DNA of 64,000 nt from Cordylochernes scorpioides (Eukaryota; Arthropoda; Arachnida; Pseudoscorpiones; Chernetidae). Position numbers and translations under genes: made by a program. Location: positions 122,463,453 to 122,527,452 of the forward strand of contig CP092863.1 of the NCBI GenBank assembly GCA_030710605.1, in the 5' to 3' direction. Below, one piece after another: positions 12,661-62,375 of the stretch; the first letter of the stretch is position 1, and every line of letters starts with the position of its first letter. Under the pieces are notes generated by a model. That model was not told where the DNA came from, searched no databases, and saw only the letters and a program-made list of their open reading frames with translations.

Positions 12661-12667
12661 TTTAGAT

Positions 12668-37024: not shown

Positions 37025-37228
37025 TATGAAAAAAGGGCATCTCCTTATCGTGCAACTGAAAGTTGCCGATGGCTCGCGCCATCTATCGGAATAAATATCA
37101 ACTATTCTCGTTGATTTTTTAATTATTCCAGAATTGGCTAAATACCCATTCTTGATTAATCAAGAAGAGCTAACCACGGACGCGTTTCAGGCTGTTGGCC
37201 CTCATCAGCGTGGTAAGCTGTACCTCAA
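37025..37228 (-). mobile_element. Penelope-like 3' end, family F3, with hammerhead
   Basis: Minus strand: hammerhead, then TTGATTAATCAAGAATGGG, CCAATTCTGGAATAATT, AGATGGCGCGAGCCATCGG, TTGCACGATAAGGAGATGCC. The clearest F3 copy, and the one that shows F3 and F2 share the same hammerhead layout. Confidence 0.8.
37173..37214 (-). ncRNA. Hammerhead ribozyme motif, type I (F3), canonical
   Basis: Minus strand: stem I ACCACG/CGTGGT (6 bp), core CTGATGA, stem II GGGC-CAACA-GCCT, GAA, palindrome ACGCGT, cleavage base C, giving the preferred GUC site. Compared with the F2 motifs, the outer stem I pair is A-U instead of U-A and the second stem II pair is G-C instead of C-G; both are compensated on the opposite strand. 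Confidence 0.88.
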
Positions 37229-37249
37229 TTTTTCAATTAATAATATGTA

Positions 37250-37395
37250 AAATAAAAAAGGCATATCCTGACCAGGATCACATGTGCTTTTCAAAAGGCA
37301 GAGCGCCATCTGGTGGAACAGAAATCAACTAATAATTGATTTAGCCTGTTCCCTGATATTTGGCCAACCCAATTTCTTGATAAATCAAGAAAAGC
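37250..37395 (-). mobile_element. F2 PLE tail (5' truncated)
   Basis: ATATCCTGACCAGGATCACA, AGAGCGCCATCTGGTGGAAC, GGCCAACCCAATTTCTTGAT; it stops before the hammerhead. Confidence 0.8.
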
Positions 37396-37734
37396 AAATG
37401 AATAATATATGATGGTTATTCACATATTAAAACAAAATGTTAACGTGGGTGTTACCTACTCGTCCGTACGTATTTTTATCTCATTTTTAAATGAAAACTG
37501 AATTGGATAACATTTTTGTAAAATTCTAAAACGACCCTCATCATAATTAAAAAATGTAAATTCTCAAAGACAAAAAATAAAGAAATTTCGAGGGATATTC
37601 CCCTCAATGCATTGTTTACAAGATAAAAACATTAATTGAAAAAACATCCTAAAATATTTAGACTCAAATTGAAATATTGAGAATAAAACAGCATGAAGAA
37701 AAGAATGCTCCGTATAAGATGGTAAAATTAAGAA
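37396..37734. other. AT-rich stretch, nothing recognised
   Basis: No gene or repeat seen. Confidence 0.4.
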
Positions 37735-37800
37735 AATGGTAATCTCCCGACCGTGCAACTGAATGTTGTTGATGGTTTGGGCCATCTAGCGGTGAATCTC
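37735..37800 (-). repeat. F3 tail remnant
   Basis: CGTGCAACTGAATGTTG, GATGGTTTGGGCCATCTAGC: a diverged F3 end. Confidence 0.55.
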
Positions 37801-38019
37801 TAATTAATAATATAGATTTGATTCACGCGATTTAGCTCATCACAAGGGGCAATAGCTACACAGTGAAAAGAATGAAATTATCTTACACGAATTGTACTTT
37901 TTCCAATAAAAACAAACGTTGCGGAAGAGAATTGCTCAATGCCTATATTTACATATTTATTCCACTTATTTCCATAATTTGATTAAATACCAATAATCCA
38001 TCCTACAGTATATACGTAT

Positions 38020-38170
38020 ATGCAAAATCGTCCAATACAACAGTAGAACTGTAAGAAAGCGCGGTATGGTAGATTAAACTGTTGAAATCACTGGAAGGGT
38101 TCACCAACTGATGAGCCAAGCCCTCCAAATGTTTCATCAGGACAGTAGAAAGTTTGTTTAATTTGAATAA
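38020..38170 (+). repeat. Family M fragment
   Basis: GCGGTATGGTAGATTAAACT, GGGTTCACCAACTGATGAGC, CAGGACAGTAGAAAG; the GGCGAAACCGC segment has decayed to TTGAAATCAC. Confidence 0.75.
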
Positions 38171-38229
38171 TAAAAAAAATCGTAAATAAGTTAAAACAAG
38201 CATCTAGGGCTGCGTATCTTTTATTTCAT

Positions 38230-38290
38230 AATTATAACACAAGCTTTCGGGCTCATCGTGTTTTACAGTTTCTCTCATTCCCTGTATATA
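38230..38290 (-). repeat. F5-like terminal remnant
   Basis: Minus strand CACGATGAGCCCGAAAGCTT: stem II/GAAAGCTT part of an F5 motif, core degenerate. Confidence 0.35.
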
Positions 38291-39288
38291 GTTAACATAT
38301 ATGTATATATATATGTTAATATGGTACATTTAGGCCTAACACACCTCAACTGAACACAATTGGACAATTGACGACACTGCTTGACAGAAGAGGATATATC
38401 TCAGAGTAGAAGTTGATTTGCATAGCCAACAAAACTATTCCTTATTTGCTGAGTGGAAAGCGAGATTTTTTACAGATCGTATGTTGAAATCCGTGGTAAG
38501 TACACTTAACGATTAAGTGTACAGTAGTTATTTATTCCGATAGGCGGTGCAAGCAATCATCAACTTTTATTTGCATACTTATATGTATTTCTAATCCTTA
38601 ATTTTGAAATGCAAATTTAAGTAAATTTTAAATCGTTATGTGTTTAGAGAAGGAAGGGTCAAAAATGGAGTTATATGGAATATAAGAAATATTGTCAAAT
38701 TTTGTGACAACATTGAAGAAATGAAACGCTTGCGAAAAAAAAAAGTTTTTTTTATTAATAAAAAAGTGAAAAAATGTCATTTTTCACAATTGATCAATCT
38801 TTCTATACAATAATTCTAGGAGTGAGAGAGACCACTGTTGACAGGTTTCACTGCATTTAAACAACAACAAAACTCATTCGATGAACTGAAATAACAAAAT
38901 TTTTCACCTCTTTTTTAACGCCTATGATACACAATCCCATAATTCATCCGTTTTATCAAATTGGTCTTTAAAAAAACATTATATAAAAAATTGAAATTTG
39001 CATAGCGTAGCCCGGTTGATATTTTGTTCTTGTTTACATATTAATTTATTCTTTTTTTGAAAATCTATACAATTGGTTTATCACGCTTTTTATTGAAGAT
39101 ATAAACACAAAGTTGCATATGTTACCCATGTTGGAAAAAAAACATATTTACATATATATCAGGTATATGGATATATGTTTATTATTATTATTTATGATAT
39201 ATATGAGATTTTAAATTGTTACAGAGCCATTCTCTAACACGTATTTAATTCTGCAAACAAATTACCACTATATCGATTGTTATATATA
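38291..39288. other. Intergenic, nothing firm
   Basis: 38510-38575 includes an inverted F3 tail remnant (TTATTCCGATAGGCGGTGC). Remainder AT-rich and unassigned. Confidence 0.4.
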
Positions 39289-39496
39289 CACTCATAGACA
39301 AAACTTAAGGAAGTGGAAAGTCTTTGATGTCGCTGGTTGTCTATTTTTTTTTTTTTTTTTTGGAGACAGAGGTTGTTTACACTTAGTTATCTCGTGTGTC
39401 TTCAATAAAGGTCACTGTAATATCTTTCAGAGTTATTGTCTCAATCCCGTTATACATGCTAAAAGGTATAAATTCCTTAAGTTTTGTCCATGAGTG
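39289..39496. mobile_element. MITE-B, best single copy, 208 bp
   Basis: Terminal inverted repeats of about 26 bp: CACTCATAGACAAAACTTAA on the left; CTTAAGTTTTGTCCATGAGTG on the right. TA on both sides (39287-39288, 39497-39498). Order inside: GGAAAGTCTTTGATGTCG, T run, GGAGACAGAGG, ACACTTAGTTATCTCG, then one satellite-monomer equivalent. TA target and end type suggest a Tc1/mariner-family MITE. It is the plausible ancestor form of the 118-bp satellite. Confidence 0.9.
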
Positions 39497-40502
39497 TATT
39501 AAAAAATAAATTTGTGAAAAATTTTTAAAAATCACACACCTTGTAAATTAAAAAATATATATATAAATAAAAATTGCCCAAACCATTTTTTCTTTCTAAA
39601 ATTCGAAATATTTGCTAATATTTTTTTGTTTATTACTTTATATATATATATTCATTTTTTTTAAATAAATATTCACGATTAGATAATATAATTTAAAAAA
39701 CATCAAAAAAGTGAAAATGTATTTTTAAAAAAATTATATTTGAAATATTAAAAAAAAATAAATACATTTTAATGTATGTATTACAAATACCAACAATATA
39801 AATATGCTCCACACAAAGAATTTTTTTTTTTTAATCACGGAAAAAAAAATTAATTTATTATATTTTGACCATGTCTTTTTTCTCTATAAATAACCAATAA
39901 AAAAAAACTTAGATGCATATATATATATATTCTGCCACTATATTCCAATAACTATATATATGAATTAATTTACATATCTTCATTGAATCCACACTCACAG
40001 CATCTATTTAAAAAAACAAAATAGTTTAGATTTTTTATAATAATAATAAAAAACAAATTCTAAAGCGATTTAAACTATATTTAATCTTTTTTTTTAAATC
40101 TTAACTATCACAAAGGGTTTAAAACAGAATCATCCTTTTTACTATTTTTTTTTTTTTTTAGTTTTATGACTACTTGTCCGTATCAAATTGTATAACAGGT
40201 TATCAAAATTTTATAAAATATATAATAAATGTTTTTTAAAAAAAGATCTAAAAAAAGTACACAGCTAATTTCTTTCCTTCATCTTTATTGTTTTGTGAAG
40301 GAAATGATAATTGAAAAACAAAATTTATAATGTGTTCATTTTCTGATATAATACATAAATAGTAATGTTATGGTTGTTTATGTTTATTTTGGTAATCAGC
40401 TGGAACCTAACCACGTGGACTACTTTTTTGGCGGGAAAAAGAAAAAGTTCGTTTGCTTCAACTTAATTATAAACACTTTTGAAATAAATAATTATTTAAT
40501 TC

Positions 40503-40505
<3 letters not shown>
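39497..40505. other. Very AT-rich stretch, nothing recognised
   Basis: Long A and T runs; no gene or repeat signal. Confidence 0.45.

Positions 40506-40540
<35 letters not shown>
40506..40540 (+). repeat. (GA)n microsatellite
   Basis: About 16 GA dinucleotides followed by AAAGT. Confidence 0.95.
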
Positions 40541-40542
<2 letters not shown>

Positions 40543-40566
40543 TACTTCAAAAAATATTATATATAT

Positions 40567-41040
40567 ATATTAAAAATAAAAAAGGCATATCCTGACCAGG
40601 AGCACATGTGCTTTTCAGAAGGCAGAGCGCCATCTGGTGGAACAGAAATCAACTAATCATTGATTTAGCCTGTTCCTTGACATTCGATATCACTTCCTGA
40701 TCATTCCTCCTCTTTTTCTTACATTTTTTCCCATCTTCTCGTTTTTAAGGGTAATTTTGCAAACTTGGTCTTAGCTACCCATTTCTTGGTTTCTCAGAAA
40801 GCCTCTTGGACCAACCTTTCTTGGTTCGTTTATGTACAGCCTGCACCACGCTGATGAAGGTCAACAGCCCGAAACGCGTACATGGTTAGGTTTTTCTTGA
40901 TTTATCAAGAAAATGGGTTGGCTAATATATATATAATGGAATAAATTAAAATCAAATTTTAGTTCATATTTATTTTGATAGATGGCGTTCTACCGTTTAA
41001 AATGTTCTTATGAAAGGTCAGGATATGTCTTTTTTTCATA
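40567..41040. mobile_element. F2 PLE, head-to-head: minus tail then plus copy with hammerhead
   Basis: 40575-40690 is a minus-strand F2 tail (ATATCCTGACCAGGAGCACA, AGAGCGCCATCTGGTGG). 40735-41040 is a plus-strand copy (TACCCATTTCTTGGTTTC, hammerhead, TTGATTTATCAAGAAAATGG, GATAGATGGCGTTCTACCG, GGTCAGGATATGTC). 3' ends point outward. Confidence 0.8.
40845..40886 (+). ncRNA. Hammerhead ribozyme motif, type I (F2/F3-like)
   Basis: Stem I ACCACG/CATGGT with one A/C mismatch, core CTGATGA, stem II AGGT-CAACA-GCCC (outer pair lost), GAA, palindrome ACGCGT, cleavage base A. Core residues are all canonical; helices are weaker than in the 37173 copy. Confidence 0.8.
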
Positions 41041-42429
41041 ATATATATATATATATTGTTGCATATATACATATATATAAAGTATATGTAAATATGCAAT
41101 GAATACATGTAATTAAAATATTACAAAGAAGAGACAGTTAAGACAAGGAAAATCAATTTTTTGCCTTTTTCTGATTTGAATCATTCTATTTTAAAAAGAA
41201 ATAATAAAAATGCATAACAGAGTAAGGATAAACAGTTAAAACAAGCTTTTAAATCGACACTGTTAAGAAGTCATATTATTTTTTTTCCAGAAAACAACAA
41301 CAACAAATAGTATTATAAAAACCTGGAATTCTTCCACTAAAGTTTCATAAAAAAAGGAAAAGTATATATGAAAAATCAAGTTTAAAAAAGTGGGATTTAT
41401 AATAGTTTTTTTATAAAAATTTATGTTGTTTTCTATCTTTATATTTCTTAATTTGTATTTTAAAAAAAAGAGAAAAAGAGTGAGTTTGTATCCTGCCGCA
41501 TGGTAGTTCGTCCTAGTTAATCCATGCATTATATACTTCCGCCAAAAAAATAGTCCAGTAAATGTTATTCCAGTTTGACCGTTATGTTGACACATACGCC
41601 ATTGAACAATTATTTAAACGTCTGCGTGACATTCGATCAAAAATAAAAGCTAAAAAAAAATAGTTATAACTAGTTAACAAAAAAAATGTTTTAAATTACT
41701 ATAAAATTCTATGTATAATTCGCCCCTAATATTTCTGTTTAAAACTGATACAGATTTTTCAAAACTAAATGTGATGTTCGACGCTCCGAAAACAGAAGAT
41801 TTTGTTAACCAAACGAAAAAAAAAAAAAAAAGGCGGGAAAGTTAAAATTGCAAATTTTATGCAATTTAAAGCGAAAGTTTTAAATGAGAGACAGAAAATG
41901 TTTATGAAAATTGCCTAAACCAAATTTAAAATTTACAAAAAAAAAAATTCTATGACAAAATAACACGCTATAAATTAAAATATGCATTTCAAATCTTTTT
42001 CTTTTTTTTTTACATTTTGACTTTTGACTTATAAAATTGTGGTGCAACTATTTAAAAGATACAATTCTAAAAAAATGTTTCAATTTCATTTTTTTTGTTT
42101 AAACATATTTTAAAATATATCTCATACGCGAACTATATTTTTCATTAATAAATAATTTTATTTCCCAGTTTCCTATTTATGTAAATAAATGATAGTTATT
42201 TATTTGTATTATTTGTATATATTTATATATAAAGTAATTATCATATAATTTTATATTTTTTCGTTTTTTGTGTTCTTAATGGTACCAAATATTTTGGATA
42301 TATTATATTTCTTTAATAAAAATGTGTTTATATTTGAGGGAAAAAAACTCGCACACACATACGTACATACATATATATATATGTATGAAAAAAATAATTT
42401 AAAAAATAGAAAAATGGTCAAATGTTGAT
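41041..42429. other. AT-rich stretch, nothing recognised
   Basis: No gene. A 110-residue open frame at 41263-41595 (minus) is low-complexity F/K/I-rich and without recognisable motifs. Confidence 0.45.
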
Positions 42430-46358: not shown

Positions 46359-47500
46359 CTCCTTCTTGGTGACTTCTACGGCAAGCAGTGAGGGAAGAAA
46401 GAATTTATAGCGCATGCGCGTAGATATGTATGCGCGTTTGGATAATAGTGGCGACGGTTGCCCAAATATTTTCATTTTTCGGCATACAAGTTAAACATTA
46501 TATATTATATTGATGTGAATATTACTATCTTGGTTTATATTTAGAAATTATTTTTGGCAGTATGTTTATATATATATTATCCAAAATGATCTGTGCAGAC
46601 CTTAATGCAATGATCGAAATTTTTTATAATTTGGCGAGACACCGTTGATAGGGTTCACTACTGATGAGTCAAGCCCTCTCACACACACACACACACATTT
46701 ATAATAATTTATAACAATGCATTTACAATAATGGACGAAAATTAAGGTGTCTCGCCAAATTATAAAAAATTTCGATCATTGCATTAAGGTCTGCACAGAT
46801 CATTTTGGATAATATATATATAAACATACTGCCAAAAATAATTTCTAAATATAAACCAAGATAGTAATATTCACATCAATATAATATATAATGTTTAACT
46901 TGTATGCCGAAAAATGAAAATATTTGGGCAACCGTCGCCACTATTATCCAAACGCGCATACATATCTACGCGCATGCGCTATAAATTCTTTCTTCCCTCA
47001 CTGCTTGCCGTAGAAGTCACCAAGAAGGAGTACACTCATGGATAAAACTTAAGGAACCTGTAGCTTCTTTCTATGTATATCGGGAGTCAGACAATAACTC
47101 TGAGAGATATTACAGTGGCCTTTATTGAAGACACACGAGATAACCAATATACACTCATGGACAAAACTTAAGGAAGTTGTACCTTTCAGCATGTATATCG
47201 GGATTGAGACAATAACTCTGAAAGATATTACAGTGACCTTTATTGAAGACACACGAGATAACCAATATACACTCATGGACAAAAACTTAAGGAAGTTGTA
47301 CCTTTCAGCATGTATATCGGGATTGAGACAATAACTCTGAAAGATATTACAGTGACCTTTATTGAAGACACACGAGATAACCAATATACACTCATGGACA
47401 AAACTTAAGGAAGTTGTACCTTTCAGCATGTATATCGGGATTGAGACAATAACTCTGAAAGATATTACAGTGGCCTTTATTGAAGACACACGAGATAACC
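45897..47500. repeat. Large palindrome linking satellite arrays 2 and 3
   Basis: The sequence from 46640 leftward to about 45897 is repeated in reverse complement from 46750 rightward, nearly base for base, through unique DNA (GCATGCGCGTAGATATGTAT, GGCGACGGTTGCCC) and into the satellites on both sides. Arms are about 0.75 kb, the central spacer about 100 bp, containing a (CA)n tract (46679-46698) and half of an M-like core. Confidence 0.92.
46590..46800. repeat. Family M relative at the palindrome centre
   Basis: GATCTGTGCAGACCTTAATGC on the left and its mirror GCATTAAGGTCTGCACAGATC on the right bracket GGCGAGACACCGTTGATAGG and ACTGATGAGTCAAGCCCTC, a diverged M core (GAAAC changed to GAGAC). 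Confidence 0.7.
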
Positions 47501-50500
47501 AATATACACTCATGGACAAAACTTAAGGAAGTTGTACCTTTCAGCATGTATATCGGGATTGAGACAATAACTCTGAAAGATATTACAGTGGCCTTTATTG
47601 AAGACACACGAGATAACCAATATACACTCATGGACAAAACTTAAGGAAGTTGTACCTTTCAGCATGTATATCGGGATTGAGACAATAACTCTGAAAGATA
47701 TTACAGTGACCTTTATTGAAGACATACGAGATAACCAATATACACTCATGGACAAAACTTAAGGAAGTTGTACCTTTCAGCATGTATATCGGGATTGAGA
47801 CAATAACTCTGAAAGATATTACAGTGACCTTTATTGAAGACATACGAGATAACCAATATACACTCATGGACAAAACTTAAGGAAGTTGTACCTTTCAGCA
47901 TGTATATCGGGATTGAGACAATAACTCTGAAAGATATTACAGTGACCTTTATTGAAGACACGAGATAACCAATATACACTCATGGACAAAACTTAAGGAA
48001 GTTGTACCTTTCAGCATGTATATCGGGATTGAGACAATAACTCTGAAAGATATTACAGTGACCTTTATTGAAGACACGAGATAACCAATATACACGCATG
48101 GACAAAACTTAAGGAAGTTGTACCTTTCAGCATGTATATCGGGATTGAGACAATAACTCTGAAAGATATTACAGTGACCTTTATTGAAGACATACGAGAT
48201 AACCAATATACACTCATGGACAAAACTTAAGGAAGTTGTACCTTTCAGCATGTATATCGGGATTGAGACAATAACTCTGAAAGATATTACAGTGACCTTT
48301 ATTGAAGACACACGAGATAACCAATATACACTCATGGACAAAACTTAAGGAAGTTGTACCTTTCAGCATGTATATCGGGATTAAGACAATAAATTTGAAA
48401 GATATTAGTGTGACCTTTATTGAAGACACACGAGATAACCAATATACACTCATGGACAAAACTTAAGGAAGTTGTACCTTTCAGCATGTATATCGGGATT
48501 GAGACAATAACTCTGAAAGATATTACAGTGACCTTTATTGAAGACACACGAGATAACCAATATACACTCATGGACAAAACTTAAGGAAGTTGTACCTTTC
48601 AGCATGTATATCGGGATTGAGACAATAACTCTGAAAGATATTACAGTGACCTTTATTGAAGACACACGAGATAACCAATATACACTCATGGACAAAACTT
48701 AAGGAAGTTGTACCTTTCAGCATGTATATCGGGATTGAGACAATAACTCTGAAAGATATTACAGTGACCTTTATTGAAGACACACGAGATAACCAATATA
48801 CACTCATGGACAAAACTTAAGGAAGTTGTACCTTTCAGCATGTATATCGGGTTTGAGACAATAACTCTGAAAGATATTACAGTGGCCTTTATTGAAGACA
48901 CACGAGATAACCAATATACACTCATGGACAAAACTTAAGGAAGTTGTACCTTTCAGCATGTATATCGGGATTGAGACAATAACTCTGAAAGATATTACAG
49001 TGGCCTTTATTGAAGACACACGAGATAACCAATATACACTCATGGACAAAACTTAAGGAAGTTGTACCTTTCAGCATGTATATCGGGATTGAGACAATAA
49101 CTCTGAAAGATATTACAGTGACCTTTATTGAAGACATACGAGATAACCAATATACACTCATGGACAAAACTTAAGGAAGTTGTACCTTTCAGCATGTATA
49201 TCGGGATTGAGACAATAACTCTGAAAGATATTACAGTGACCTTTATTGAAGACATACGAGATAACCAATATACACTCATGGACAAAACTTAAGGAAGTTG
49301 TACCTTTCAGCATGTATATCGGGATTGAGACAATAACTCTGAAAGATATTACAGTGACCTTTATTGAAGACACGAGATAACCAATATACACTCATGGACA
49401 AAACTTAAGGAAGTTGTACCTTTCAGCATGTATATCGGGATTGAGACAATAACTCTGAAAGATATTACAGTGACCTTTATTGAAGACACGAGGTAACCAA
49501 TATACACGCATGGACAAAACTTAAGGAAGTTGTACCTTTCAGCATGTATATCGGGATTGAGACAATAACTCTGAAAGATATTACAGTGACCTTTATTGAA
49601 GACATACGAGATAACCAATATACACTCATGGACAAAACTTAAGGAAGTTGTACCTTTCAGCATGTATATCGGGATTGAGACAATAACTCTGAAAGATATT
49701 ACAGTGACCTTTATTGAAGACACACGAGATAACCAATATACACTCATGGACAAAACTTAAGGAAGTTGTACCTTTCAGCATGTATATCGGGATTAAGACA
49801 ATAAATTTGAAAGATATTAGTATGACCTTTATTGAAGACACACGAGATAACCAATATACACTCATGGACAAAACTTAAGGAAGTTGTACCTTTCAGCATG
49901 TATATCGGGATTGAGACAATAACTCTGAAAGATATTACAGTGACCTTTATTGAAGACACACGAGATAACCAATATACACTCATGGACAAAACTTAAGGAA
50001 GTTGTACCTTTCAGCATGTATATCGGGATTGAGACAATAACTCTGAAAGATATTACAGTGACCTTTATTGAAGACACACGAGATAACCAATATACACTCA
50101 TGGACAAAACTTAAGGAAGTTGTACCTTTCAGCATGTATATCGGGATTGAGACAATAACTCTGAAAGATATTACAGTGACCTTTATTGAAGACACACGAG
50201 ATAACCAATATACACTCATGGACAAAACTTAAGGAAGTTGTACCTTTCAGCATGTATATCGGGTTTGAGACAATAACTCTGAAAGATATTACAGTGACCT
50301 TTATTGAAGACACACGAGATAACCAATATACACTCATGGACAAAACTTAAGGAAGTTGTACCTTTCAGCATGTCTATCGGGATTGTGATAATAACTCTGA
50401 AAGTTATTACAGTGACCTTTATTGAAGACACACGAGATAACCAATATACACTCATGGACAAAACTTAAGGAAGTTGTACCTTTCAGCATGTATATCGGGA

Positions 50501-51200
50501 TTAAGACAATAACTTTGAAAGATATTAGTGTGACCTTTATTGAAGACACACGAGATAACCAATATACACTCATGGACAAAACTTAAGGAAGTTGTACCTT
50601 TCAGCATGTATATCGGGATTGTGATAATAACTCTGAAAGTTATTACAGTGATCTTTATTGAAGACACACGAGATAACCAATATACACTCATGGACAAAAC
50701 TTAAGGAAGTTGTACCTTTTACCATGTATATCGGGATTGAGACAATAACTCTGAAAGTTATTACAGTGACCTTTATTAAAGACACACGAGATAACCAATA
50801 TACACTCATGGACAAAACTTAAGGAAGTTGTACCCTTCAGCATGTATATCGGGATTGAGACAATAACTCTGGAAGAAATTACAGTGACCTTTATTGAAGA
50901 CACACGAGATAACCAATATACACTCATGGACAAAACTTAAGGAAGTTGTACCTTTCAGTATGTATATCGGGATTGAGACAATAACTCTGAAATATATTAC
51001 AGTGACCTTTATTGAAGACACACGAGATAACCAATATACTCTCATGGACAAAACTTAAGGAAGTTGTACCTTTCAGCATGTATATCGGAATTGAGACAAT
51101 AACTCTGAAAGATATTACAGTGACCTTTATTGAAGACACACGAGATAACCAATATACACTCATGGACAAGACTTAAGGAAGTTGTACCTTTTAGCATGTA

Positions 51201-52524
51201 CAAGGTGCGTTCATTAATTTCCAGGACTGCTCTGTATCTTTGAAAAAATAAAACAAATAAAAAAACTAATTTAATATTTTTCAAAATATGCCCCTCCTGC
51301 CTCAATACACCTGTTCCATCTTTTTTTCCAATTGTCGAAGCAGGAGATAAAATCACTTTTTGAGAGGTTCGTCAAGGTTGCCTTCGATTCAGCTTGTATC
51401 ATATCAACGTTGTCAAATTTCTTTCCTTTAAACTTTATTTTCAATTAAGGATAGAGGAAAAAGTCATTGGGGTCTAAGTCGGGGGAATAGGATGGATGAG
51501 GGATCTGTATGGTTAAATGCTTGGCCAAGAACTGCAAAACAACATGGGCTGTGTGCGGCCGCGCATTATCGACGTGAAGTATCCAGTCATTGTTTTGCCA
51601 TCTTTCAGGTCTTTTAAGGTGCACTGCCTCCCTTAAGCGCCTCATTATCCCCAAATAAACCTCTTGATTAATTGTACGTCCGAAAGGAATAAAATCATGG
51701 TGAACCAAACCATTAAAATAAAAAAAATGTAACAAGCAATGTCTTGACTTTGGATTTTGTAAATCTGGCCTTTTTGGGTTTCGGTTCCCCTCTTTCAATC
51801 CATTGGCTGGATTGACGTTTGGTTTCCGGGTCATACTAATACACCCATGTCTCATCCCCGGTAAGGATTTTTTCATCCATTCTGGATCGGTCCAAGTCAT
51901 TTCAATCATGTTTTTGCAGACATCCATTCTAACCTCCTTTTGTTCCTCTGTTAGAATCCGAGGAACAAATTTTGAAGACGTCCGGATCATGTCCAAATCT
52001 TTTGTTACTATTTGATGACACAGTCCTACAGATAGTCCAGTCTCTGAAGATAAGTCTTTGATATAAATTATTCTGTTAGATTTAATTAATTCCTTTATTT
52101 TGAGCTTGTTTTCCTCGCAACGTAATGATCTTGGACGCCCAGTATGCTGATCATCGTTTACCTTTTCCCGACCTTTTAGGAAGCGTGAAAACCATTCGAA
52201 AGTTCTTGAACGGGATAAAGCTGCATCGCCAAAAGCTTCTTTAATCAATTCATACGTCTCAGTAGCAATTATTTTCAATTTAAAACAAAACTTAATGCAG
52301 ATTCTCTGCTCTTAGAAAATGGCCATTTTAAAATTAGAAATGCGAACCTTACAAGGAAGTTGTTTTGTTCTATTTTTAGATCGGCGCGTGCGCCACGAGA
52401 CTCGTGCTTTCAGTCAGGTGTGGTCGAATGTCCAATATTTAACTCTGTATGAAATTTTTTTCTTTAGTTTTTTTATTTATTTTATTTTTTAACCAGTGTC
52501 CTGGAAATTAATGAACGCACCTTG
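51201..52524 (-). mobile_element. Mariner element, 1,324 bp, inserted in a satellite monomer
   Basis: Perfect 27-bp terminal inverted repeats (CAAGGTGCGTTCATTAATTT... at 51201-51227 and its complement at 52498-52524), flanked by TA on both sides. Removing the element and one TA restores the satellite consensus GCATGTATATCGGG exactly. It carries a broken transposase on the minus strand. Confidence 0.95.
51271..52325 (-). pseudogene. Mariner transposase (D,D34D), inactivated
   Basis: Degenerate remains of a ~350-residue transposase that would cut and paste the element at TA sites. From the N-terminus: EQRICIKFCFKL and ATETYELIKEAFGDAALSRS (first helix-turn-helix), TGRPRS linker, a second HTH around KELIKSNRIIYIKDLSSETG, then the catalytic domain. 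First catalytic Asp lies in LTGDETWVY (codon 51854-51856) but in a shifted frame; second Asp in HVDNARPH; third in SPDLDPND, 34 residues after the second, diagnostic of D34D mariners. Damage: a stop shortly after the likely start Met (near 52313), a frameshift in the A run at about 51868-51873, a stop after WVY (51836-51838), a return shift in the T run near 51720-51730, and a stop after FFLYP (near 51442). Homology continues to FEKY and a final stop at 51271-51273. The transposase cannot be made; perfect ends mean the element could be moved only by another source. Confidence 0.92.
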
Positions 52525-53840
52525 TATATCGGGATTGAGACAATAACTCTGAAAGTTATTACAGTGACCTTTATTGAAGACACACGAGATAACCAATATA
52601 CACTCATGGACAAAACTTAAGGAAGTTGTACCTTTTACCATGTATATCGGGATTGAGACAATAACTCTGAAAGATATTACAGTGACCTTTATTGAAGACA
52701 CACGAGATAACCAATATACACTAATGGACAAAACTTAAGGAAGTTGTACCTTTCAGCATGTATATCGGGATTGAGACAATAACTCTGAAAGATATTACAG
52801 TGACCTTTATTGAAGACACACGAGATGACCAATATACACTAATGGACAAAACTTAAGGAAGTTGTACCTTTTACCATGTATATCGGGATTGAGACAATAA
52901 CTCTGAAAGATATTACAGTGACCTTTATTGAAGACACACGAGATAACCAATGTACACTAATGGACAAAACTTAAGGAAGTTGTACCTTTCAGCATGTATA
53001 TCGGGATTGAGACAATAACTCTGAAAGATATTACAGTGACCTTTATTGAAGACACACGAGATAACCAATATACACTAATGGACAAAACTTAAGGAAGTTG
53101 TACCTTTTACCATGTATATCGGGATTGAGACAATAACTCTGAAAGATATTACAGTGACCTTTATTGAAGACACACGAGATAACCAATATACACTAATAGA
53201 CAAAACTTAAGGAAGTTGTACCTTTCAGCATGTATATCGGGATTGAGACAATAACTCTGAAAGATATTACAGTGACCTTTATTGAAGACACACGAGATAA
53301 CCAATATACACTAATGGACAAAACTTAAGGAAGTTGTACCTTTCAGCATAGATATCGGGATTGAGACAATAACTCTGAAAGATATTACAGTGACCTTTAT
53401 TGAAGACACACGAGATAACCAATATACACTAATGGACAAAACTTAAGGAAGTTGTACCTTTTACCATGTATATCGGGATTGAGACAATAACTCTGAAAGA
53501 TATTACAGTGACCTTTATTGAAGACACACGAGATAACCAATATACACTAATGGACAAAACTTAAGGAAGTTGTACCTTTCAGCATAGATATCGGGATTGA
53601 GACAATAACTCTGAAAGATATTACAGTGACCTTTATTGAAGACACACGAGATAACCAATATACACTAATGGACAAAACTTAAGGAAGTTGTACCTTTCAG
53701 CATGTATATCGGGATTGAGACAATAACTCTGAAAGATATTACAGTGACCTTTATTGAAGACACACGAGATAACCAAGTGTGAACAAACTTGTCTCTGATT
53801 CTTTCAATAAATCAGCGGACTGATGACATCTATTAGTGTA

Positions 53841-54354: not shown

Positions 54355-54356
54355 AG

Positions 54357-54632: not shown

Positions 54633-55305
54633 GATGGTATTTTAAATATCTAGTCTCAAAATATTCTTTTGTAGATAGATTTACCTGTTAGGATATATTC
54701 TTACTTGACTACGTTCAAAATCAAGACATCTTAACATATTTCTTTTATAACAGAATGGAATTTTTTTTACTTATTAACCTATTTTACATTAATAGAAATT
54801 TAAAACAAAAAACGTTACATACAAATTAGAAGCAAACTCTCTACAAAACTAAAAAACAAAAACAAACGAGAGTTCTAAATATAGCAATTACAATGTTGCC
54901 AAATATAATTAAACAAAACAAAAACTATTCATAAAAATATATGTTTAAATATATTTTCACAATCTGTACAGAAGCCGTTGGCCGGATCCCAACAGAATAT
55001 ACCTTTTTTAATGTAAAAAAAAGTGTCAGTTTGTCACAAACATTACTATATTATAGCTGTTTAAATGTTTGTTGTTAGTATCCATCAAATAGAGTTTGAC
55101 TTGTGGTAACTCTATGGACAAATATTCCCCAATGTGATCTGTTAGTGACCATCACTCTCATCTAGTGACCTTCTGGTAGCTTTCTTGACCTCTTCTAGCC
55201 ACGGTTGTTGTGGTCCATTCCTTTTCACCCACCAGTAAAGTTTTTACTGAAGTGACAAAAATAATTCATCGTTTTAATATTTTTTTTCTATTGTTTTTTC
55301 ATGTT
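54633..55305. other. AT-rich stretch, nothing recognised
   Basis: No gene or repeat signal; 55080-55240 is less AT-rich but has no open frame with family resemblance. Confidence 0.45.
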
Positions 55306-55309
55306 TTAA

Positions 55310-55605
55310 GCGTCTTTACACAAATTTGGCCTTAAATACCCATTTCTTGATTTCTCGGGAAGCCTCTGGGACCAAAAAATATTTTTGGTCGCAGTGGTTA
55401 CAGCTTACTCCACACTGACGAGCGCCAACAGCGCGAAACACGTTTGTGGATGGCTTTTCTTGATTTGTCAATAAATTGGGTTGGCTAAATATCACGGAGC
55501 AAGTTAAATAAACGTTTAGTTTATTTTTGCTCCACTAGATGGCGCTCTGCCATCTAAAAAGCACATGTGCTCGTGGTCAGGAGAGATGCCTTCTTTATTT
55601 TTAAT
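55310..55605 (+). mobile_element. Penelope-like 3' end, family F2, most complete plus-strand copy
   Basis: GGCCTTAAATACCCATTTCT, GCCTCTGGGACC, hammerhead, GGCTTTTCTTGATTTGTCAA, GGGTTGGCTAAATATCACGG, TAAATAAACGTTTAGTTTA, CTAGATGGCGCTCTGCC, CACATGTGCTCGTGGTCAGG, TTATTTTTAATAT end. Confidence 0.82.
55409..55450 (+). ncRNA. Hammerhead ribozyme motif, type I (F2), with compensated stem I
   Basis: Stem I TCCACA/TGTGGA: the innermost pair is A-U where other F2 copies have G-C, i.e. both strands changed together. Core CTGACGA, stem II GCGC-CAACA-GCGC, GAA, ACACGT (palindrome with one change), cleavage base T. Core canonical. Confidence 0.85.
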
Positions 55606-55750
55606 ATATTATTTTATTCCTACAAATCTGATAATGATTCCCTGTTATTCTTCTATCTGATGTATAGGTGTTTATCTAAATCTACATACTGTGTTCATTG
55701 ACATGTAAATACTTTAATATGTACTCTCAATTTGAATATTTGAATGTAAT

Positions 55751-55966: not shown

Positions 55967-56034
55967 AGTTTGTATTATGTATAAAAGAAATATTCGTGCT
56001 TTTAAATTCTTTCATTTTATATATACTTTCTTAT

Positions 56035-56168
56035 TAAAAATAAAAAAGCATATCCTGACCAAGAGCACATGTGCTTTTCAGATGGCAGAGCGCCATTTAA
56101 AACTCTTTTAAAGTCAGATGGCGCTCTGCCTTCTGAAAAGCACATGTGCTCTTGGTCAGGATATGCTT
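56035..56168. mobile_element. F2 PLE tails, head-to-head palindrome
   Basis: CATATCCTGACCAAGAGCAC, CAGAGCGCCATTT / its mirror AGATGGCGCTCTGCC, GTGCTCTTGGTCAGGATATG; about 65-bp arms and a spacer of about 15 bp. Confidence 0.88.
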
Positions 56169-56254
56169 TTTTATTATTTTTTTAATTTTTAATATCAACA
56201 TCTGACCCACTTTTTTTTTCTATTGTTTTTTTTCATATTTCTTATTTTGAAAAT

Positions 56255-56480
56255 AGAGCAATCCATATTTAATTCATTAGACAATTAAAAGGCATATATT
56301 GGATTTAATAAAAGATTTATATTGCCAATATTTTGGCTGGCTGAACGCCAACCTTTATTGAGTTTGTGTATACAAAGATGTAATGCCTCGATAAAGGTTG
56401 GCGTTCGGCCAGCCGAAATATTGGCAAAATAAATATTTTATTAAATCCAATATATGCCATTTTATTATCTAATACTTTCT
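56255..56480. mobile_element. F1 PLE palindrome
   Basis: Left arm (minus): AATAGAGCAATCCATATTT, CATATATTGGATTTAATAA, CTGGCTGAACGCCAACC. Right arm (plus): GATAAAGGTTGGCGTTCGGC, CAGCCGAAATATTGG, TTAAATCCAATATATGCC. 3' ends outward. Confidence 0.88.
56388..56430 (+). ncRNA. Hammerhead-like motif (F1), covarying helices
   Basis: Stem I TGCC/GGCA where other F1 copies have TACC/GGTA; core TCGATAA; stem II GGTTGGC-GTTCG-GCCAGCC (7 pairs, one wobble); GAA; ATAT; T. The paired change in stem I shows the fold was once selected. Core positions depart from consensus (U3-like and A8), so activity is doubtful. Confidence 0.5.
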
Positions 56481-56668: not shown

Positions 56669-56870
56669 CTGCTGTCCTAAAAGCTTATGTCCATAGTTCA
56701 TCTAAAATACCCATTCCAAGAGTCAAGCATCAGTATCACTATAAAAGGAAGCTCCAAAAATGCAATATAACAGCGGTATGGCAGATTAAACTGGCGAAAC
56801 CGCTGGGAGGGTTCACCACTGATGAGCCAGGCCCTCCCTTTAATTTTTCCATTGCAGTAAGGACAGTAGA
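56669..56870 (+). repeat. Family M element, complete, 202 bp
   Basis: TCTGCTGTCC...GGACAGTAGA; almost identical to 27439-27640, including the flank TATTTATAATTATATGTAAT on the left. The shared left flank implies that the mobile or duplicated unit is longer than the M ends. Confidence 0.85.
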
Positions 56871-57690
56871 AATTGTTTTGTTTTAAAAAGAATATTACGC
56901 CTCTAAAATAGTTTTGTAATTTAATTTAAAATAAGTTTGTTTACAAGTATTAGGAAAAATGCGAGATTTCGAGCTTTCTCTCTTTGTCAGTCATAAATTA
57001 AAATGAAGAATGAAACACGGACGTATGTGTTTCTGTATTTCTATGTAAGATGTGGGGGCGTATTGGTATGATGAGTTTGACGAGGAAGTATCCGTTTGAG
57101 AGATCAGAGTTACGGTTATGTAGTGGCGCTATGTCAGGGGAATAAGGTGAAGGTGCTAAGCCGGAAACCATTGGGCGGCAGCTCACGTCTGTCGGGGCGA
57201 CGTGGCCGCCCTACATATGGCCGACCAGAAGTAGGCTTAGCTCACACCGCAAACGTTACATTGCTCCATATTGAAATATATTTGATCGTCTGCGCTCTCT
57301 TTTAAAACTGTCGTTTGGTCGTGAATATCAGTCGTCTGCGATACTTTTTTTTATATCTCTTTTTTAAACCGTATTTAAACTGATTTTTTTATTATTCTAA
57401 AAAGGCACTGCTCAATATAATTATAGTTAATAAGTTATAATTAGTAATTTTGATTTAAGTTTTTTATGTATATATGAAACAAATATATACTGTTATTTAA
57501 AATATTTGAGAGAATTTAAAAATGAATGTGTTTTAACGTCTTTTTTTTTTTTTTTTTTTTTGAATAATAATTCCAATTTTATTTAGAATCATGCATTAAC
57601 GCGCTATCTTCATTTGAAAATATATACTATTTCAGAAAATGTTCATTTTTTGGACATGATAATTTTCTCTTTATCTTTACTACGATTATA
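56871..57690. other. Intergenic; poly-T tract
   Basis: 57000-57310 is balanced-composition unique sequence with open frames but no recognised domain. A T run lies at about 57541-57561. Confidence 0.4.
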
Positions 57691-57694
57691 TACT

Positions 57695-57830
57695 ATAAGG
57701 TCCTGGCTCATCAGTGGTGAACCCTCCCAGCGGTAGATTAAACTGGCGAAACTGCTGGAAGGGCTCAATACTGATGAGTCAGGCCCTCTCAATATCTCTC
57801 TCATATCAGTAAAGGCAGTAGGAATTTTTT
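57695..57830. repeat. Two family M core fragments, inverted and abutting
   Basis: GGCTCATCAGTGGTGAACCC-TCCCAGCGG (minus) runs directly into TAGATTAAACTGGCGAAACT and ACTGATGAGTCAGGCCC, CAGTAAAGGCAGTAGG (plus). Confidence 0.8.
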
Positions 57831-57899
57831 TACTTAAAAAAATAATATGTGATTAAAATAGTTTATAATTTTGAATATAGATGGCACACGTATATTGCA

Positions 57900-58088
57900 T
57901 ATTGATTCTTGCAAAGGTCCAACCCCATCAGCGAGTGCAAGTAACCAAACGGGGTTATGACATATTTGTAAGTGCAAAGTCGAACTGCTTTTCACATGTT
58001 GAGACATGGGATACACTTACAGTAAAAAGCAGTCGCTAACTATCCACCATGATTATCATGGCCTGTACCATGTGTACTAGGGATAATA
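57900..58088 (+). mobile_element. tRNA-derived SINE (S5), 5' truncated
   Basis: GTGCAAGTAACCAAACGGGG, GTGCAAAGTCGAACTGC, CCATGATTATCATGG, TGTACTAGGGATAATAA. Lacks the tRNA-like head. Confidence 0.8.
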
Positions 58089-58954
58089 ATTTTAAAAATG
58101 TATATATACATACAATACAATACTCCATTTTTTCCCCTTTTACTCACAAACACATAATTACTCAAATACGATATATTTACATATTTTCATATTTACATAT
58201 TGCGCTCTATATATGCAAATCGATTTTTTTAACCAAAAATTGACATCTCTTAAAAGCCTGAAAATATAAAATGGGAACCCAACTTTCCACTAAGACTCTA
58301 AAAAAATAAAAATTGCAGATAATCATATTAGCTCTGTAGCAGAGGTTTAAAGAAAGGAAGAACAGAGATAAAAAAAAATAGAAAAGAGGAAAAAGTGAAT
58401 AGGCGGCTAGAGAGGGTTGTGGAATTAAAATAAATGGTTTGTGCCGGGGAAGTAAAGTTAAATGGCAAATCTATCCCATAATATCCTATGCAACATTTAC
58501 CACCAACTATGTCGTGCCATGGATGAATGCATAAGCCTTTTCTCTTAGTTCTCGTTTTTTAAAACTTTTGGTAAAGAATTGTCCATTTATTTCAATGATA
58601 TACTTTTATGGATAATAAAAATTTAATCGTTCGAAGCATTTTTTTTTTAGGAGTAAATGGTTTGTTTGTTTTTTTAGAGAGAATGTGTATTGATATTATT
58701 TATTGGTTAGAGAGATAGTAGGAATATAAATGGTATTGTTGGTTTTTAAAGGTAAGAGGGAAATTGTATGTTACTCTTTTGGTTTTCCTCTTTTTAGGAT
58801 TAAGAGGTTTTTTTTAATGATTAATATTATATTGGAAAGATAGATTTGTGTGTAGAACTGTAATGAAACATTATTTTAATATATTTTCATCAGTTATTTA
58901 AAGATATTTTTTAAAATTTCCAAAAATATATGTTCTATATGTATATATTAGATA
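58089..58954. other. Intergenic, nothing recognised
   Basis: AT- and G-mixed sequence (58360-58480, 58640-58830) without a convincing gene. Confidence 0.4.
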
Positions 58955-59165
58955 GTAAAAAGGCATATATTGGATTGGAGCGCCAACAGCGCGAAACGCG
59001 TTCGTGGATGGCTTTTCTTGATTTATCAAGAAATTGGGTTGGCCAAATATCACGGGGCAAGCTAAATAAACGTTTAGTTTATTCTTGCTCCACTAGATGG
59101 AGCTCTGCCATCTAAAAAGCACATGTGCTCGTGGTCAGGAGATGACTTCTTTATTTTTAATAAAT
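58955..59165 (+). mobile_element. F1 end fused to an F2 copy truncated inside its hammerhead
   Basis: AAAAAGGCATATATTGGAT (F1 terminus, minus) joins at 58975-58980 to GCGCCAACAGCGCGAAACG, so the F2 copy starts at hammerhead stem II and lacks the core. It continues to the full F2 tail (ending TCTTTATTTTTAATAA). Confidence 0.8.
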
Positions 59166-59221
59166 ATATGTATATATGAAAAACAATAGAAATAAAAAAA
59201 CAAGTGGGTCAGGTGTTGATA

Positions 59222-59460
59222 TTAAAAATAAAGAAGGCATATCCTGACCACGAGCACATGTGCTTTTTAGATGTCAGAGCGCCATCTAGTGGAGCAAAAA
59301 TAAACTAAACGTTTATTTAACTTGCTCCGTGATATTTGGCCAGCCCAATTTCTTGATAAATCAAGAAAAGCCATCCACGAACGCGTTTCGCGCTGTTGGC
59401 GCACGTCAGCGTGGAGTAGTCTGTACCACTGTGACCAAAAATCAACGCCATGCCCCCTCA
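59222..59460 (-). mobile_element. Penelope-like 3' end, family F2 (tail-to-tail with the previous)
   Basis: GGCATATCCTGACCACGAGC, CAGAGCGCCATCTAGTGGAG, GGCCAGCCCAATTTCTTGAT, then the hammerhead region and GTCTGTACCACTGTGACC. Confidence 0.8.
59374..59415 (-). ncRNA. Hammerhead motif (F2) with a broken core
   Basis: All helices perfect (TCCACG/CGTGGA; GCGC-CAACA-GCGC; ACGCGT), but the core reads CTGACGT: invariant A9 is U. A natural point mutant of the 62245 copy. Confidence 0.8.
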
Positions 59461-59629
59461 ATATTTTTATCTTTCGTTTCGTGTTTCTATAAATTTATCT
59501 TTTTTTTTATAGAACAAAATACTTAACGATGAATATGATAATAATAAAATTACTTGAAAACTTTCTCCATAGATTGTATAAACGATAAGGAAGAGTAAGG
59601 AGAAAAGATTTTTATCCAATTAAACTTGT

Positions 59630-59668
59630 GACAAGCTTTCGGGCAGTCACGCCCTTCAACAGGTAATA
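59630..59668 (-). ncRNA. Hammerhead-like motif, F5 (left arm)
   Basis: Minus strand: core CTGTTGA, unpaired A, stem II GGGC-GTGACT-GCCC, GAA, AGCT, T. No convincing stem I. A6 is U. Mirror copy at 60187-60222 (plus). Confidence 0.5.
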
Positions 59669-60186
59669 AAAAGAACAATTGACTATTAAAATAGGAAACA
59701 AACTGAGCTTTAAACAAAAATGATACAACTGCAGCCTGGCCGCGAGAAAACGTGAGGTGGGGGGGGGGGGGGGGGGTTTATCCGGTTTTTAAGTTAATAC
59801 ATATATCATGATATTGGTTAGGTAAATCTATATGTCGATTAATACTGTCATTAGAAATGGATAAAATGGCCTCTATGATTAATCTCTGGTGTTTACTGGG
59901 AATGTTATTGTACAAGGTGGTGGGAGAATCTAAATTGAAAGAATGGCCCATAATTCCCAGTAAACACCAGAGATTAATCATAGAGGCCATTTTATCCATT
60001 TCTAATGACAGTATTAATCGACATATAGATTTACCTAACCAATATCATGATATATGTATTAACTTAAAAAACAAATAAACCCCCCCCCCCCACCTCACGT
60101 TTTCTCGCGGCCAGGCTGCAGTTGTATCATTTTTGTTTAAAGCTCAGTCTGTTTCCTATTTTAATAGTCAATTGTTCTTTTCATTA

Positions 60187-60222
60187 GCTGTTGAAGGGCG
60201 TGACTGCCCGAAAGCTTGTCAC
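60187..60222 (+). ncRNA. Hammerhead-like motif, F5 (right arm)
   Basis: Same elements as the left arm: CTGTTGA core, stem II GGGC-GTGACT-GCCC, GAA, AGCT, T. About 110 bp beyond the PLE coding remnant, on the same strand, as expected for a PLE terminal repeat. Confidence 0.5.
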
Positions 60223-60268
60223 AAGTTTAATTGAATAAAAATCTTTTCTCCTTACTCTTCCTTATCGA

Positions 60269-60599
60269 ATATGATAATAAATTCACATTTTTCACATATA
60301 AATGGCGGTATGTAAAAGATATATATTTGCATATTTCCTATAGTCTATTATACAATGAAATCAGATTTGCATACCGTGACCGAACCAACAAGTACCAACC
60401 CACCACCAAATTAACTCCGGTAATTTCCTCGGAAATGTTGCCAGCTACATTATTTAGTTCCTGCGGTGGTGTATCTATCGACAAATGTCAAAACTCCAAA
60501 CTTGTTTCTAATTGGATCAATTGACAGCGTAGAGGGAAATATTTATCGACCGAAACTAATTTGAATTGTATATATAACACACACCCATTCTCTTCTATA
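60269..60599. other. Intergenic, nothing recognised
   Basis: 60360-60525 is mixed composition with a short open frame lacking recognisable motifs. Confidence 0.4.
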
Positions 60600-60845
60600 T
60601 ATATATTTTAAATTTGAAAGCTTTCGAGCAAATATACTGCTCTTCAACAGGCTGATACTCTATGTACAATCTCTAAATAATCTTTATACAAAATAATTTA
60701 AAACTTTTGTTGTAAACAATTATTTTGTATAAAGATTATTAAGAGATTGTACATATAATATTAGCCTGTTGAAGAACAGTATATTTGCTCGAAAGCTTGT
60801 AAATTCAAAATTAAAAGAAACTTTACCTGATATTTATTTTTACTT
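60600..60845. mobile_element. F5 PLE ends, head-to-head palindrome
   Basis: Left (minus): GCCTGTTGAAGAGCAG, TTGCTCGAAAGCTTTC with stem II GAGCA/TGCTC. Right (plus): GCCTGTTGAAGAACAG, TTGCTCGAAAGCTTG. Between them TTTGTATAAAGATTATT and AATAATCTTTATACAAA mirror each other. Confidence 0.8.
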
Positions 60846-60934
60846 TTTCAAATAATTTCTGGGTCACTATTACTCACACATATATATATGTTATATAAAA
60901 ATTATTTAATTTTAAAATTATAATTCCCAGATCA

Positions 60935-61190
60935 AATTACTCTGTAAAGTCTATCGCAAGATGTCACGGATTTTCCATATATAAACTCATTTAGTGTTGT
61001 TTCCCACTGGCCGGCTCAAATCTTTCTGTAGATATGTAAATAAGTCTTTCATTTTCTTTATTCTTACGCCTTAAATCAGGCAGTACTTTTCTCAATTTAT
61101 GTTTTAAATATTTCATAAGTTAAATTAAAGCAATATTGATCTAAAATATGTTTTGTATTTTCTAAGATGATGTCCACGACTGCAATACCA
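60935..61190 (+). repeat. Dispersed repeat family F7 (diverged)
   Basis: CTGTAAAGTCTATCGCAAG, GTTGTTTCCCACTGGCCGGC, ACGCCTTAAATCAGGCAG; the most diverged of the four copies. Confidence 0.6.
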
Positions 61191-61682
61191 TGAAATTATC
61201 TTATATCAAAATAATATCATTTAGTACCAATGTACAACCTTATCTCAACAATTCCAAAATCAGCAGAAATAATTTTTGTAATATATATATATATATATTA
61301 AATAATCTAAAAACTCAAATATTTCTATATTTTAAAAAATATATATTTTATTCATTGATAATTCAACTTTTGGTTATCATCGTTTTTAGAAAGACTTTCA
61401 GTTTTGTTGTAAATATGCGTAGTTAACATATCTATCTTTTTAAATCACTAATATAGGATTAACTTTATAATGTGAAAATAACTAATGTGTAATATTTCCT
61501 CAAGTAATTGAAAATAAAAGCTACTTGATGGTAAATAATTATCTTTTTCTTATCACGACTGCACCTTCAACCCTTTATCTTATCGATCCTTTGTCTTATC
61601 AACCCTTTATCTAACAACAACAACAATTATTCATAACATATATATATATACACCTTCTTCCACATATGTCACTAATATAGTT
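61191..61682. other. AT-rich stretch, nothing recognised
   Basis: No gene or repeat signal. Confidence 0.4.
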
Positions 61683-61692
61683 AAGAATAATT

Positions 61693-61997
61693 TCAAAAGA
61701 GGTCGGTGGAAGTATGGTCTAAACCGTTGGTTTTCGATCGCTACGACCAGGACTCCAATCCTGCATTTGGCACTTTTTTTTTAATTGAAAAAAAAAAGCT
61801 TCAATGGCCCCTATTCTTACAAAATTCCAACCCCATCAGCGATTTCAAGTAACCAAACGGGGCTCTGTCAAATTTATAAGTGCGAAAGTTGAACTGTACA
61901 TGTGTAGACGTGTAGTGTACTTACAGTAAAAGTAGTCGTCAACTTCTAACTACCATGATTATCATGGCCTGTACCACGTTTACTAGGGATAATAAAA
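61693..61997 (+). mobile_element. tRNA-derived SINE (S6), with target-site duplication
   Basis: A box TGGTCTAAACCG near 61715, decayed B box (GGACTCCAATCC), body AGTAACCAAACGGGGCTCTG, CATGATTATCATGG, and an A-rich tail. AAGAATAATT flanks it at 61683-61692 and 61998-62007. Confidence 0.85.
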
Positions 61998-62094
61998 AAG
62001 AATAATTCAATCATGTCAGTTATGGCGAGTATATGAGTGTATGTACCAATATATATATATATGGCACATATCCCTTTAAAATAAATATATATAT

Positions 62095-62375
62095 TAAAAA
62101 TAAAAAAGGCATATCCTGACCAGGAGAACATGTGCTTTACAGAAGGCAGAGCGCCATCTGGAGGAACAGAAATCACCAAACATTGATTTAGCCTGTTCCC
62201 TGATATTTGGCCAACCCAATTTCTTGATAAATCAAGAAAAACCATCCACGAACGCGTTTCGCGCTGTTGGCGCTCGTCAGCGTGGAGTAGGCAGTACAAC
62301 TGCGACCAAAAATAATCTTTGGTCCCAGAGGCTTCTTGAGAAACAAAGAAATAGGTAGTTAAGGCCAAACTTGCG
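62095..62375 (-). mobile_element. Penelope-like 3' end, family F2, with intact hammerhead
   Basis: GGCATATCCTGACCAGGAGA, CAGAGCGCCATCTGGAGGAAC, GGCCAACCCAATTTCTTGAT, hammerhead, GGTCCCAGAGGCTTCTTG, TTAAGGCCAAACTTGCG. Colinear with the 2120 and 55310 copies. Confidence 0.82.
62245..62286 (-). ncRNA. Hammerhead ribozyme motif, type I (F2), consensus copy
   Basis: Minus strand: stem I TCCACG/CGTGGA (6 bp), core CTGACGA, stem II GCGC-CAACA-GCGC, GAA, palindrome ACGCGT, cleavage base T. No deviation from the hammerhead consensus. Stem III is a self-complementary hexamer too short for a stable intramolecular loop, which in known PLE and retrozyme hammerheads goes with cleavage as a dimer. Confidence 0.88.

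Follow-up and report, generated by a model that had tools for sequence, protein, structure and literature searches.

The stretch of DNA analysed here, a window of 64,000 nucleotides from the pseudoscorpion Cordylochernes scorpioides (GenBank assembly GCA_030710605.1, contig CP092863.1, positions 122,463,453 to 122,527,452 of the forward strand), contains short repeats of several kinds, among them F2/F3, a discrete repeat some 325 nt long, which carries a type I hammerhead ribozyme motif and resembles the animal retrozymes without long terminal repeats (LTRs), with a dimer-prone helix III of the newt type. A profile built from nine copies, with matches taken at E below 1e-15, finds 20 copies of F2/F3 in the window, and a whole hammerhead is present in six of them. 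The same window holds a coding remnant of a Penelope-like element (PLE), together with PLE-type tails in which a second hammerhead-like motif occurs.

The two longest copies, both near full length, are an F2 element of 324 nt at 62088-62411(-) and an element of 327 nt with a C-type 3' half at 55283-55609(+); they have no LTRs and fall within the retrozyme range of 170-400 nt. A whole hammerhead is also found in an F2 element at 2110-2403(-), in an F-type element at 40743-41049(+) that stands head-to-head with 40564-40687(-), in an element at 59217-59443(-) that stands tail-to-tail with 58978-59166(+), and in the F3 copy at 37018-37238(-), which lies within the tail of an F2 copy (37243-37396(-)) that starts just 3' of the hammerhead. 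GC content across six F2/F3 copies is 0.336-0.427. Among the 14 copies without a whole hammerhead, those at 58978, 54492 and 644 start inside it or keep a decayed part (58978-59166(+) is 5'-truncated inside the core and abuts an inverted PLE-like tail), the copy at 9550-9636(+) is a 5' half that stops inside the core CTGATGAG, and the profile matches of the other ten start downstream of the hammerhead. Copy starts vary, mostly through 5' truncation, and the copies share the tail GGTCAGGATATGCC-TTTTTTATTTTTAATAT or its subfamily form. At the 5' border, similarity is lost at approximately the same point in three copies and about 25-35 nt earlier in two others. A coding reading was rejected: the 148-aa frame that runs through the 62245 hammerhead has no Pfam match and, by eye, is not open in three other copies.

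The original prediction placed one 42-nt hammerhead layout at five sites, and we find it at all five: 2267-2308, 37173-37214 and 62245-62286 on the minus strand and 40845-40886 and 55409-55450 on the plus strand. A copy-derived pattern allowing up to three mismatches matches six sites in the window and none in 100 shuffles; the sixth site, at 59375-59409(-), was absent from the prediction and has the core CTGACGT instead of CTGACGA (A9 to U). This copy need not be dead, because a natural A9U hammerhead is reported as functional in the accessible text of PMC10085705. The features of a type I hammerhead (CUGANGA, GAA, A15.1-U16.1, H17, stems I and II) are complete at 62245, 37173 and 55409, and the remaining three copies each have at least one defect: the altered core at 59375, a G.G mispair in stem I at 2267, and, at 40845, two mispairs, one in stem I (C.A) and one at the base of stem II (A.C), this last copy being probably weak or dead. 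Helix III reads GAA-A-CGCG-U-H, with one A-U pair and the palindromic tetraloop CGCG; the hexamer ACGCGT is palindromic in five of the six copies, and at 55409, where core and stems are intact, it is the non-palindromic ACACGT. The assignment to type I with a minimal palindromic helix III is supported, as is the choice of 37173 and 62245, both with intact core and palindrome, as the best candidates for activity: the F2 hammerhead at 62245 has a GUU cleavage site, and the F3 (subfamily B) hammerhead at 37173 a GUC cleavage site and the outer stem I AGCU/AGCU. Cofolding two copies is predicted to gain 7.1, 4.4 and 5.4 kcal/mol over two monomers for 62245, 37173 and 55409, respectively.

A strict descriptor passes three of the five sites (55409, 62245 and 37173); 400 dinucleotide shuffles average 0.07 passes. 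In an Rfam scan of the window, no hammerhead reaches its gathering score. With the limit relaxed to E 10, the sole hammerhead-family matches listed are those of RF02275 (Hammerhead_HH9), which appear at four of the six sites with 19.7-22.4 bits, below the gathering score of 52 (E 0.49-3.7 for the whole window); when the search is limited to a local stretch of 141 bases, the 62245 site is matched at E 0.0011 with 22.4 bits. HH9 aligns with F2/F3 from end to end, including the outer stem I, but, besides the low score, the helix III region of F2/F3 is five positions shorter.

To describe covariation, we laid out six copies over 15 pairs, four in the outer stem I, six in the inner stem I, four in stem II and one in helix III. 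Paired cells amount to 94.4%, with one mispair at 2267 (stem I), two at 40845 (stem I and stem II) and one outer-stem mispair each at 62245 and 59375. Four of the 15 pairs have changed on both sides, a number reached by 5 of 500 shuffles, and the covariation score is 0.289 versus 0.168 for shuffled alignments (0/500 as high) and 0.000-0.067 for slid structures. Each of the three compensated pairs claimed previously is present in this layout, namely the outermost pair of the inner stem I (UA/AU), its innermost pair (GC/AU) and the second pair of stem II (CG/GC); compensation also occurs, with UA for CG at 37173, in the outer stem I (AGCC/GGCU type), a part beyond the 42 nt. The covariation is real and does not disappear in this alignment of six copies. 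Between 62245 and 37173 the hammerheads differ only at N7, at H17 or at paired positions that are still paired. In all five comparisons that involve the F3 copy (37173), conservation is higher in the hammerhead than in the part downstream of it (p 0.0009-0.012, the comparisons being non-independent). That downstream part contains hairpins, including GATGGC/GCCATC, with 89.2% of cells paired over 17 copies and 17 double-change cells versus 5.6 in shuffles (0/500), and circular folds of four copies are highly self-paired (z -4.2, -5.1, -2.7 and -2.6).

The F3 copy at 37018-37238(-) is flanked on both sides by the 13-bp sequence ATATTATTAATTG, a repeat matched in 1 of 1000 shuffles; of the 20 copies 12 were tested, and this one gave the best result. 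This copy and its neighbour 37243 form the one same-strand F pair, which looks like a nested insertion, flanked by the duplication. At the 55283 copy, a 9-bp flanking repeat is matched in 59 of 1000 shuffles; an 11-bp AT repeat near 58978 (9/1000) was set aside, lying 30-40 bp away from the copy. We also recorded the orientation of 15 pairs of neighbours (F2/F3, PLE-tail and D repeats) lying no more than 200 bp apart, two spots that matched two profiles each having been merged. Nine pairs are head-to-head (four F, three PLE-tail and two D), three are tail-to-tail and three are same-strand, and five of the nine head-to-head pairs have 2-17 bp between their halves. From these arrangements we infer that the foldbacks would have arisen by the nascent cDNA folding back on itself.

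Foldbacks also account for an apparent microRNA. A mir-980 match above the Rfam gathering score at 56062-56152(+) coincides with the foldback of the copies 56031-56099 and 56115-56175 and is probably no microRNA gene because of that position; several further microRNA matches from the sub-gathering scan likewise lie on foldbacks. On the 3' side of the tail, 56202-56233(+) and approximately 59175-59215(-) run into TTTCTATTGTTTTTTCA-like sequence, as found at the start of the 55283 copy (55283-55301(+)). A pattern search for this stretch matches only at 55285 and 56217, with 0.17 expected, and the continuation of the tail into the sequence of the 55283 start could reflect a multimeric or circular template. 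A further word, TAGATGGCGC, occurs with at most one mismatch at 28 sites in the window versus 1.1 expected, in F2/F3 and in other repeats (e.g. 14520, 19055, 20432 and 57878); it may resemble the CTCF core.

The PLE remnant at 17206-18327(-) has the end of a reverse transcriptase (YIDD) and a GIY-YIG domain in one open reading frame (ORF). GIY-YIG scores 27.3 bits, over a cut-off of 22.6; for RVT_1 the score of 17.7 bits falls short of the cut-off (29.6), and the evidence for the reverse transcriptase part is this weak match together with the YIDD letters. On the 3' side of the remnant there is another, minimal motif resembling a hammerhead, and the 3' region of the remnant recurs inverted at 18316-18619 with 94.9% identity, forming a foldback. 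F2/F3 is absent from its flanks, the nearest copies in the window being 12574-12665 and 37018-37238. The original prediction had taken the F2/F3 fragments as terminal repeats of PLEs, a claim that the sequence does not establish, since the sole PLE coding remnant in the window is without flanking F2/F3. The two are connected in other ways. The tail word ATATGYCTTTTT occurs eight times versus 0.16 expected, in four F2/F3 tails, in two PLE-tail profile matches (7426 and 19780) and in two tails that are PLE-like by resemblance (58968 and 19250). The PLE-tail profile weakly matches two F2/F3 copies (E 0.005 and 0.009), and in a fused copy at 12574-12765(-) a minimal hammerhead of PLE type (C3 at 12743) is joined to an F3 3' half. 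To judge from these sequences, mobilisation of F2/F3 by a PLE is likely, and a description as non-autonomous, retrozyme-like and probably PLE-mobilised fits better than that of a terminal repeat because of the shared tail motif, the fused copy and the foldback habit.

Hammerheads of Penelope-like elements were reportedly described by Cervera in 2014 and by Lunse in 2017. F2/F3 shares with them a minimal helix III, a likely action as dimers and an occurrence beside PLE sequence; it differs from them in being unattached to a PLE ORF in the window and in its two-part stem I with an internal loop. The motifs of the D-type repeats at 12743(-), 11084(-) and 11165(+) look like PLE hammerheads proper.

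Elements of the F2/F3 kind are already known in animals. The accessible text of Cervera and de la Pena 2020 (PMC7229834) describes retrozymes of 170-400 nt with GC under 50% and, when present, target-site duplications over 4 bp, with PLEs as strong candidate drivers, and an axolotl hammerhead, HHR_Amex1, that has one helix III pair and a palindromic tetraloop and resembles the hammerheads of amphibian satellites. F2/F3 agrees with such animal non-LTR retrozymes, as portrayed there, in its type I hammerhead, length, GC content, lack of LTRs and self-paired RNA, one copy has a target duplication (13 bp) of the length described, and its helix III is of the HHR_Amex1 type. We propose that F2/F3 is a retroelement of about 325 nt that is non-autonomous and behaves as animal retrozymes do, with a PLE reverse transcriptase as the inferred copier, a reading to which we assign a probability of roughly two in three.

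Several observations weigh against this proposal. The animal retrozymes described in the published text are tandem, whereas the F2/F3 copies are dispersed, 5'-truncated or arranged as foldbacks, and no tandem F2/F3 array is found among the 40 rows that Tandem Repeats Finder gives for the window; because this tandem arrangement is missing, we do not claim outright membership in the retrozymes. A convincing target-site duplication is seen at one of the 12 copies tested. Because the non-palindromic copy at 55409 gains as well, the predicted cofolding is no test of what the palindrome does, and without the F3 copy the hammerhead is conserved significantly above the downstream part in two of ten comparisons (p 0.019 and 0.034). 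In the downstream hairpins, the number of double-changed pairs (5) is reached by 102 of 500 shuffles and that of further pair types (11) by 488 of 500, and the one structure that RNAalifold returns on 17 copies is a hairpin of five pairs, none of them changed on both sides. The stems of the hammerhead are found, by eye, in the minimum-energy circular fold of two of the four copies (62245 and 55409). Moreover, the accessible text on the anole PLE reports that its hammerhead cut only in the presence of protein and that cutting was unneeded for insertion in vitro (PMC11167929).

Other explanations have to be set beside the retrozyme-like reading. An autonomous PLE, with its coding part missing from the window, may have left F2/F3 as solo pseudo-LTRs, a reading that we regard as unlikely. 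Pseudo-LTRs of PLEs do carry type I hammerheads according to the accessible texts of PMC7761336 and PMC11167929, a PLE coding remnant lies in the window, and the likeness between the tails of F2/F3 and those of PLEs, as well as the two weak profile matches, would be expected from such an origin. However, the common 5' point at which three copies end their similarity makes the unit look complete, and the motif next to the PLE remnant is a different one; the frame starting 3' of the hammerhead, open at 62245, has stops by eye in 55409, 59443 and 37173. It is less probable still that the copies are dead fossils, in which the layout survives by shared ancestry with no cutting today: the core and stem defects in 2267, 40845 and 59375 and the 14 copies without a whole hammerhead agree with decay, but three copies retain all core letters and stems, and the changes between 62245 and 37173 respect the fold as noted above.

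That the layout is a product of chance, or a convergent palindrome, is extremely improbable. Such an origin would suit the sub-gathering scores of the Rfam matches and the fact that the largest value among the 400 shuffles also was three descriptor matches. Against it stand six related copies with no match in 100 shuffles and the local HH9 match, and the double-sided covariation refutes it in practice.

If F2/F3 is indeed a retrozyme-like element copied by a PLE enzyme, its transcript would fold into a self-paired RNA with the type I hammerhead near its middle. Since helix III has one A-U pair and the palindromic CGCG, efficient cutting would probably occur through two hammerheads pairing by way of ACGCGU in a multimeric or paired transcript, for which newt and PLE hammerheads offer precedents. 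If cut 3' of GUC, GUU or GUA, the transcript would yield unit-length RNA, which a host ligase may circularise. A PLE reverse transcriptase would then copy the RNA from its fixed 3' tail (..GGATATGCC/TTTTTTAT..) into AT-rich DNA. Early stops of the enzyme would produce the 5' truncation, and copying back on itself the head-to-head foldbacks, as the copies suggest. According to the accessible text of PMC11167929, the enzyme of the anole PLE initiates copying internally and has a preference for AT-rich DNA.

The U3-A8 core in the neighbouring PLE tails is an unusual version of the hammerhead and the most unusual feature of the window. The order of the motif, (stem I) UUGAUAA A (stem II) GAAAUAUU (stem I), is that of the hammerhead with C3 changed to U and G8 to A, and from its sequence helix III would be A-UA-U and the cleavage triplet AUU. 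We aligned 13 PLE-type motifs, chosen by core pattern, in a layout based on structure. They include 20810(-) and 12544(-); left out were 11312(+), where stems could not be seen, 20826(+), which breaks off within the core, and 13123(-), of which there is just a 3' part. Ten have U3-A8 and three have C3-G8 (12743(-), 11165(+) and 11084(-)), and the best fit of every one of the 13 has an additional nucleotide ahead of stem II. The U3-A8 motifs are found at 16950-17002(-), in the 3' region of the PLE remnant, and in PLE tails at 7354-7406, 3009-3061, 19939-19991, 56379-56431 and 12929-12981 on the plus strand and at 19795-19847, 2602-2654, 20767-20819 and 12500-12552 on the minus strand. The C3-G8 motifs belong to D-type repeats with the core CUGACGA and GAAACGUY: a head-to-head pair at 11002-11247 (11002-11109(-) and 11142-11247(+)) with minimal hammerheads, and the canonical-core, minimal PLE-type hammerhead of the fused copy (12661-12765(-)).

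Among the ten U3-A8 motifs, one has U4 changed to C and one G5 to C. Their stems show partly compensated changes between lineages, and several are mispaired, chiefly 16992, 12937 and 12544. A strict U3-A8 scan finds four sites versus 0.017 expected per shuffle (60 shuffles). Independent lineages are few, because six of the ten motifs form one family with 91-94% identity. A single U3-A8 copy compared with Rfam gave no hammerhead match, and a literature search, beyond whose reach the main papers on PLE hammerheads lay, turned up no natural hammerhead with U3-A8. Przybilski and Hammann are said to have tested exchanges of the C3-G8 pair in vitro in 2007. As a tentative reading, to which we give rather less than even odds, the PLEs here have a natural hammerhead in which C3-G8 has been exchanged for U3-A8, kept with partly compensated stems I and II across several diverged lineages that include the remnant with reverse transcriptase and GIY-YIG; it may be a working ribozyme variant, or a fold kept as an RNA-binding platform for the reverse transcriptase after the loss of cutting. 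Relatives were also sought in contig collections. A scan of viral contigs for the PLE protein gave 24 pattern matches, none confirmed as a relative, and of four patterns applied to viral and one to bacterial and archaeal contigs one pattern matched, in four stretches that by eye lack the stems of the motif and were judged to be chance. Absence from these collections is uninformative about animals, because they are bacterial/archaeal and viral.

Two further features of the window may be recorded. At 47031-51200, 51445-52311 and 52523-53776, an ORF of mariner-type transposase (Pfam HTH_48 and Transposase_1) lies between arrays of a 118-bp satellite, which recurs at 25728, 45888 and 63109 and whose unit end looks like a mariner terminal repeat. 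A 55-bp minisatellite (34130-35112) in a GC-rich stretch is found just upstream of an ORF of ion-channel kind (Ion_trans_2) at 35441-36133(+), which we read as a two-pore potassium channel.

If our reading is true, F2/F3 would be a newt-type, dimer-prone retrozyme that exists beside PLE remnants, with one fused copy tying both together, and it would lend sequence support to the published suspicion that PLEs drive the retrozymes of animals. The U3-A8 motif, in turn, provides natural material with which to ask whether the core pair of the hammerhead is exchangeable and whether cutting or binding is the reason why PLEs retain the hammerhead.

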